From Microglena sp. YARC (taxonomy: Eukaryota; Chlorophyta; Chlorophyceae; Chlamydomonadales; Chlamydomonadaceae): a stretch of 64,000 bases of DNA. Positions 1,886-44,863 of this stretch are shown here, piece after piece. The stretch covers positions 27,011,611 to 27,075,610 of the forward strand of contig CM039464.1 of assembly GCA_022414725.1 (NCBI GenBank). Direction: 5' to 3'. Made by a program: the position numbers and the translations under genes. Within the stretch, counting starts at the first letter, position 1, and each line of letters opens with the position of its first letter. The notes beneath the pieces were generated by a model, which saw nothing but the letters and a program-made list of their open reading frames with translations, had not been told where the DNA came from and made no database searches.

Positions 1886-2705
1886 TCATGAGTGGGACTT
1901 CGCCAGAGAAGGGGCTCTGGAAATCCCCCTCTCAGCCCTCTCATGCATGCTTCCAGACCCATTCAACTTGGTAGTGGCAGTGCCCGACCCTCCACCTGCC
2001 ACAGAGCCCGTCTTAGACCCAGTTTTTGATCCAGCCTTTGATCCCTCCACAGAGCCCACCTTTGGCCCAGGCCTGGATCCGTGATCAGAGCCTATCTTGG
2101 ATACAGACTTAGATTCCTCCCTTGGTCCAGCCTTGGACACAGGCTTGGATCCATGATCAGTGCCTATCTTGGATACAGCCTTAGATTCCTCCCTTGACCC
2201 AGCCCTTGACAGAGCCCTGGATCCATGCTCAGAGCCTTCCTTGGATACAGCTTTTGACCCAGCCTTCGAGGCAGGCTTTGAGGCAGGCTTTGAGGTAGGC
2301 TTAGAAGCAGTCAGCGAGGGCTGCTTCTCTGAGGTGTGGCTCCTCACACTTCTGCCACTCTTCTCACTCTTCTCACTCTTCTCACTCTTGAAGCTGTGGA
2401 GGCTGTGCAGCTCCTCCTGGGCCGCGCCACGTTCGGCCGCCTCGGCCGCCTCCTTCTCACGTCGGTCCCGGATTATATTCAACCGATATCTCTTGTCGCT
2501 CTCGCTTTCAGAGGAGCTTGAGTGCGAGCTCGGAGTCGTGACCTCTGTGTCTGTGGAGGCACTGCTGTACACCAGGGCATCCCGCCTCTCCTTTGGTGCT
2601 TGGCTTGGCTTGGGCTTTCGCCTGGGGTCCCTCTCACTCCGCCGCTGCCGCTGGGCCTCTTGCTTGGTCCCAGGGGATGGGCTGCGTTGAACCTTGCCAG
2701 TGCCC
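1886..2705 (-). CDS. RS-rich gene, terminal SK/GS-repeat exon
   Basis: Acceptor ctggcag; the first base completes an Arg codon from the previous exon. The exon reads GTGKVQRSPSPGTKQEAQRQ, a basic segment, a charged helix-like stretch (RLNIIRDRREKEAAEAAERG), repeats of FKSEKSEKSEKS, then many KAGSK/SKxGSxHGS units, ending SLAKSHS and a stop. The last bases before the stop recur about three times in the following 180 bp (1709-1885). Confidence 0.8.

Positions 2706-44863: not shown

Follow-up and report, generated by a model that had tools for sequence, protein, structure and literature searches.

Introner elements are repeated intronic sequences that occur at many loci. In the case of intron gain by tandem duplication, a splice-site sequence is duplicated, and in potato such a duplication crosses the intron-exon boundary (PMC4974935). 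According to the accessible part of PMC2812944, human genes in segmental duplications contain minisatellites at exon-intron boundaries, with units of on average 30 bp and 4 copies, and these are said to yield novel introns or to activate cryptic splice sites. In six species of the Chlamydomonas group, median intron lengths range from 198 to 343 bp, and tandem repeats with monomers >10 bp contribute to genome size (PMC8226300, accessible part). In a search of mostly non-subscription literature, by titles and the beginnings of abstracts, no paper was found on splice-junction arrays as a genome-wide feature of introns.

The window, by which the whole analysed stretch of 64,000 nucleotides from Microglena sp. 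YARC is meant, sits on a 63-Mb contig of an assembly of 568,105,699 bases, and 34% of it consists of tandem arrays with a period of at least 20 (TRF). Exon edges are copied here together with their splice sites in direct tandem into the adjoining intron, and the same is found beyond the window. Junctions were scored with a 40-mer word (20 exon and 20 intron bases) that was scanned without gaps against the own intron, and at least 27 of 40 matching bases were counted as a copy, the chance level being given by a median best score of 19-23/40 per junction against other introns. The sample comprised 66 junctions of 33 introns from one assembly, with exon edges predicted from sequence. A direct copy was found at 34/66 junctions and an inverted copy, looked for in the own introns, at 0/66, on which an inverted-repeat origin of the arrays is rejected. 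From a junction to its nearest copy the distance is 45-606 bp (median 190), and copy identities range from 0.65 to 1.0 (median 0.82), a spread that suggests recent arrays at some junctions and old ones at others. The median intron has 1117 bp (n=23 introns measured), and about half of the intron length is repeated.

The window contains two genes with such arrays, a DUF726 gene on the plus strand and a gene on the minus strand, here termed the RS gene. In the DUF726 gene, whose junctions were placed by hand from reading frame and paralog alignment after some arrays had been seen, 9/14 junctions have copies of at least 27/40, and together with its paralog the count is 15/22. Its C-terminal exon model is supported because the joined exons score as Pfam DUF726 (176 bits in 2 stretches); among the open frames of the DUF726 and RS regions taken singly, none scored above a Pfam family cut-off except that of a saposin gene. 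The features are as follows:

20321..23401, plus strand: donor of exon 1 (exon ends at 20321) with donor-side copies (TRF, 40-mer scan, sequence read); the junctions after 20519 and 23165 are weak copies with 28/40 and 27/40, separated by an unrelated 75-bp array (20564-23104).
24213..25921, plus strand: donor of exon 2 (23680-24285) with a 131-bp array (TRF, 40-mer scan); 12 copies of ...GCTCTCAAG/GTAAGTGGG (slash at the junction) with 29-37/40.
29080..30201, plus strand: donor of exon 4 (28623-29099) with downstream copies at 29489, 29613, 29639, 30012 and 30144, 26-29/40 (40-mer scan).
36977..37723, plus strand: donor of exon 7 (36851-36998) with an array of 10 junction copies, 61/79-bp spacing, 31-36/40 (40-mer scan, TRF).
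38509..38895, plus strand: acceptor-side 110-bp array of exon 8 (38853-38974), junctions after 38521, 38631 and 38742, 34-40/40 (40-mer scan, TRF).
38940..40500, plus strand: donor of exon 8 (38974) with 7 downstream copies of ...CTGGTGGAGCTGCATAG/GTAGG, 28-34/40 (40-mer scan, sequence read).
42178..42372, plus strand: acceptor-side array of exon 9 (42353-42505), the unit consisting of a CCCTAAA tract and ACACACAG/GCTGCAGAAGAGG, 31-39/40 (40-mer scan, TRF).
42490..42870, plus strand: donor of exon 9 (42505) with copies after 42711 and 42850, 34 and 38/40 (40-mer scan).
44048..44863, plus strand: exon 10 (44704-44863, with stop), its acceptor being copied upstream after 44068 and 44234, 28 and 34/40 (40-mer scan).
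3618..4069, minus strand: RS gene donor 3912 with one downstream copy (3720) at 29/40, in a 191-bp array (TRF).
10945..11234, minus strand: RS gene, exon starting at 11014; a single copy of its acceptor lies upstream at 11214, 38/40.
11690..12747, minus strand: RS gene, exon starting at 11757 (DVELLQMAMNYSSD...); 7 copies of its acceptor lie upstream at 11917-12727, 31-39/40.

The arrays that the initial annotation had placed at junctions are confirmed in part. For DUF726 it had named the donors of exons 1, 2, 3, 5, 7, 8 and 9 (6 as possible), by exon numbers without coordinates, which leaves the assignment to its exons 3-6 uncertain: copies are present at donors 20321, 24285, 29099, 36998, 38974 and 42505, whereas donor 28422 (17/40), the tentative exon 5 donor 31021 (21/40) and the exon 6 donor 32595 (22/40) stay below the threshold. 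Among the acceptors of exons 7, 8, 9 and 10 that it had listed, those at 38852 (to 40/40), 42352 (to 39/40) and 44703 (to 34/40) hold, and the exon 7 acceptor 36850 does not (best 24/40). Acceptors 23679 and 28622, for which no array had been claimed, reach at best 20 and 21/40, again below threshold. In the RS gene, the proposed donor array at 3912 is seen and that at 6106 is borderline (26/40), while of the proposed acceptor arrays those of 11757 and 11014 are clear and that of 4714 (24/40) drops out.

Some other elements of the window and of regions fetched for comparison may be mentioned here. Telomere-like CCCTAAA tracts lie within repeat units just 5' of acceptors both in the window (42178-42372) and at exon 7 of the DUF726 paralog P2 (L008), and these CCCTAAA-bearing acceptor arrays sit at different introns of the two paralogs. 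The saposin gene is an uninterrupted open frame of 432 aa on the minus strand (56854-58149) with saposin-B-like domains (SapB_1 3.4e-10, SapB_2 7.6e-9, two stretches each), and a comparison of its protein with viral contigs revealed no relative. A repeated protein segment (EVLASLDSVKAELL...) occurs several times at 49.9-51.1 kb of the window and at 1.5-7.5 kb of L012, which suggests a tandem gene or exon family. An open frame just downstream of the window (L013, 3509-4570, minus strand) contains three near-copies of SSAEVCDLLENIVWQCING, possibly another exon-edge array. In a random sample (L025-L026, C4:10.019-10.024 Mb), three long retroelement open frames were seen that look copia-like by eye; the open frames of the random samples yielded few usable genes.

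The initial annotation had described introns that have grown longer through tandem copies of the exon edges flanking them, and this applies to other genes as well. CCT chaperonins, which are unrelated to the window, have 64 matches in the genome, of which 7 gene regions were taken, and their splice sites were called by profile continuity and GT/AG, with the top-scoring pair used in each case. Of 31 adjacent CCT exon pairs 20 introns were used, and of 5 kinesin pairs 3; pairs were left out when the profile gap exceeded 25 residues, when there was no confident GT/AG pair or when there was no intron, and the region CCTf fell out wholly. The last CCTc pair, the last CCTe pair and the third kinesin pair of L036 were omitted by judgement, and in the two CCT cases, where the second match resembles a copy and overlaps with the first, the omission lowers the copy count. 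The kinesin sample was not unselected, as L036 and L037 were fetched since their table rows already showed copies, but the L036 intron that was used is not the one with that copy, and L037 is outside the 66 junctions. In the CCT genes, 17/40 junctions have a copy in their own intron and 12/20 introns have at least one such copy, whereas CCT junction words reach 27/40 against introns of other genes in only 1/648 comparisons, by which introner elements are rejected as the source.

A check independent of splice calling used HMM matches that lie in pairs on the same strand, no more than 3 kb apart, and overlap by at least 18 profile positions; it gave 28 pairs from 323 rows of five families. In all 7 pairs that share the exon 3' edge (6 exons) the short copy lies downstream, and in all 6 pairs that share the 5' edge (5 exons) it lies upstream, two exons supplying two pairs each in these counts. 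Ten further pairs overlap without a common edge, several of them resembling successive exons with overlapping profile ends, and 5 pairs are nearly equal in extent. Inspection by eye of the rows for the RuBisCO small subunit (8 rows; 4 near-complete and 2 split matches in the genome) and AMP-binding (17 rows) brought no further pair with a common edge and two that overlap without one. The RuBisCO matches, like the CCCTAAA tracts inside introns, indicate an alga of the green lineage. In L037, the last ~120 bases of a kinesin exon recur, with the splice site, in three copies behind the exon, one of them with an altered GT. The pattern recurs among matches to DUF726, RS, CCT, kinesin, HSP70, myosin and tRNA-synthetase genes.

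The arrays are probably the outcome of minisatellite growth that is blind to splice sites and is tolerated since splicing uses the exon-proximal copy. A very active process would create and enlarge tandem duplications in non-coding DNA irrespective of splice sites, and whenever such a duplicated unit by chance spanned an exon edge, its additional copies would come to lie in the intron. The message would stay the same provided that the splice site next to the intact exon is the copy in use, and duplications across exon edges would be retained since a donor or acceptor still adjoins the intact exon; they would then decay like neutral sequence, so that introns lengthen and decoy junctions remain. 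The copies have what is expected of minisatellites, as they are arranged head to tail in direct orientation (TRF arrays; orientation counts above) and are of local origin (only the one cross-gene match; resemblance to the own edge in the paralog comparison below). Presumably, the exon-proximal copy is the one that is spliced and the decoys are mostly harmless. At exon 7 of P2, acceptor copies upstream of the true acceptor are up to 40/40 identical to it, and with such near-identical upstream acceptors first-come or nearest-pair rules would choose the wrong site, whereas exon definition, the pairing of acceptor and donor across a short exon, would select the right copy on both sides and may be what makes the choice.

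An alternative is that the splice junctions themselves drive the process, as the initial annotation had supposed, with AGGT motifs, R-loops or breaks at splice sites triggering duplications and introns being built outward from the junctions. In favour of this, 19/24 array-rich introns involve a junction copy, 3398/5228 repeated interior positions (65%) fall within spans of junction-containing arrays, and the rate in DUF726 is very high (the 15/22 given above). As a description, the lengthening of introns by their own edges is borne out by these counts, but as a cause the junction does not stand out. Without low-complexity words, coverage at junctions (34/66) is no higher than in intron interiors (4783/9052, 0.53), the two values not being independent as 65% of the repeated interior positions lie in junction-array spans. 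Per intron, the difference between junction and interior averages 0.011 (bootstrap interval -0.125 to 0.142); at about +-0.13, this interval leaves room for junctions that are covered somewhat more or somewhat less often than the interior, and the result is the same with two other thresholds. In the 20 CCT introns, the share of 30-mers that are copied in the same intron is 41% at +-10 bp of the junction and 40-56% through the intron, and on the exon side it declines with distance (30-60 bp, 30%; 60-100 bp, 14%; 100-150 bp, 0-1%); the DUF726 profile has the same shape at a higher level, and there is no peak or step at the splice site. Likewise, 31/120 CCT exon-interior words 45-80 bp from the edge and 275/597 intron-interior words are copied in the intron. 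The fade inside exons would partly reflect unit length and perhaps partly a loss of units that contain a whole exon. By ungapped extension, 0/72 copies reach 90% of the known exon length, and 0/112 extend 125 bp into the exon, as compared to 5/112 that extend that far into the intron, numbers that agree with exon definition but do not decide for it.

Five of the 24 array-rich introns have no junction copy at all. Many junctions do contain AGGT, as had been noted, but this has no association with the arrays: the exon starts with GT (AG/GT) at 10/19 acceptors with copies and at 7/14 without (Fisher p=1.0), and an AG precedes 13/14 donors with copies and 15/19 without (p=0.37, not significant), so that a dependence of the arrays on AGGT is rejected. 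The flat profile and the equal coverage of junction and interior reject a duplication triggered at the junction in the same way, and a driving role of the splice junctions is in all unlikely.

Selection for redundancy is a second alternative, in which spare junctions would be kept to aid splicing (as spare sites, for U1/U2 loading or for ratcheting) or for regulation. Decoy splice sites are indeed not depleted. In an analysis that excluded the splice dinucleotides from the score used to find copies, GT is whole in 42/52 donor copies, with 39.8 expected at the rate of the neighbouring exon side, and AG is whole in 47/53 acceptor copies, with 42.6 expected. Together, 89/105 decoys are whole, which is not below the neutral-decay expectation and agrees with the earlier statement that many spare splice sites are left. 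The decoy acceptor AG (53 copies, 18 introns) is slightly better kept than the exon-side bases (0.943 vs 0.897; interval of the difference 0.005 to 0.077), and this is not predicted by pure neutrality. On the other hand, the copies are widely diverged (identities as given above), the loss of donor dinucleotides proceeds at the exon-side rate, paralogs have different arrays at one and the same junction, and AG/GT as a feature of recursive (ratchet) splicing is not enriched at reiterated acceptors. In donor copies the intron side has diverged 1.73 times (1.03-3.23) as much as the exon side, in acceptor copies 2.73 times (1.87-4.6), and constraint on the true exon alone would give a ratio of about 2; the acceptor value above 2 perhaps stems from ungapped alignments that break in low-complexity tracts. 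That the spare junctions are kept for a function is quite improbable on this evidence.

It can also be asked whether the introns were created by duplication of an AGGT-containing exon segment and then grew, as in the Rogers model, since the initial annotation had related the arrays to intron gain. That exon edges and the AG/GT beside them are copied in direct tandem fits this model. The DUF726 paralog P2 (C3:19.08-19.10 Mb) lies 8 Mb from the window gene, has copies at 6/8 junctions and, with its C-terminal exons joined, scores 215 bits against Pfam DUF726 in one stretch. In a third DUF726 copy on a small contig (L010, G000:C1666, 12.4-13.5 kb), exons 9 and 10 form one open frame with no intron, and the exon 8/9 intron (window 42352; P2, L008) is shifted by four codons between window gene and P2, by sliding or by independent origin; both observations would suit a creation of introns by duplication. 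However, the two DUF726 paralogs agree in position and phase for 3/4 compared introns, the compared intron positions of CCTb and CCTc are common to both with independent arrays, and at homologous junctions of these two paralog pairs 51/52 copies are nearer to their own exon edge than to that of the paralog (49/50 if two copies of the exon 9 acceptor, whose intron is placed differently in the two genes, are set aside), the sole exception differing by a single base.

As paralogs share introns while the copies resemble their own edge, the arrays are later than those introns. An origin of the arrays before the gene duplication is rejected on the same resemblance, and the arrays, judged from these comparisons, arose repeatedly and independently after the introns common to the paralogs. 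For the compared DUF726 and CCTb/CCTc introns, a creation of the intron by the duplication was not found, the claimed intron gain is not borne out at these positions, and the lack of an AGGT association adds to the reasons why the Rogers model is very improbable as an explanation of the arrays. An artefact of the assembly or of wrong gene models, to which splice sites predicted from sequence alone could give rise, is extremely improbable, as the copies differ by up to 35%, the pattern recurs across the gene families named above, CCT junctions were called by profile continuity and the joined exons score as DUF726.

Choice among lookalike splice sites has usually been studied with few artificial duplications. 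The genome appears to hold many natural ones, on both sides of the intron, of differing ages and with matched paralog controls. It is possible, and tentatively proposed here, that about half of all splice junctions of the genome carry 1-12 near-intact copies in cis and that splicing routinely picks the exon-proximal one. If this is true, the organism is a natural experiment on splice-site choice, for donors and acceptors alike, in which neither a nearest-pair intron definition (last donor, first acceptor) nor a first-come co-transcriptional choice (first acceptor) can be the rule, and in which recognition across the exon would be unusually strong. The arrays also suggest a transposon-free route to long introns, and they are a warning for gene prediction, as annotation tools may face several equally good splice sites per exon edge.

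Compared to the known systems, the arrays resemble introner elements in that intronic sequence is repeated at many loci, but unlike introners the copies are local and come from the exon edge of the intron itself, with the one match in 648 across genes. With the Chlamydomonas-group genomes they have in common that these are green algae with tandem repeats and long introns, whereas the median intron of 1117 bp is longer here, and arrays over exon edges are not mentioned in the accessible part of that work (PMC8226300). Like in intron gain by tandem duplication, the duplicated unit includes the splice-site sequence, but no new intron results: length and decoys are added to introns that paralogs share, and there is no dependence on AGGT (PMC4974935, as far as accessible). 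There is also a likeness to the human boundary minisatellites, the expansion of which alters exon and intron lengths; these are known, in the accessible part of that paper, from recent paralogs with variable repeats and have units averaging 30 bp, whereas here the nearest copy lies at a median of 190 bp, there are up to 12 copies, and about half of the tested junctions, in conserved gene families, are concerned (PMC2812944).
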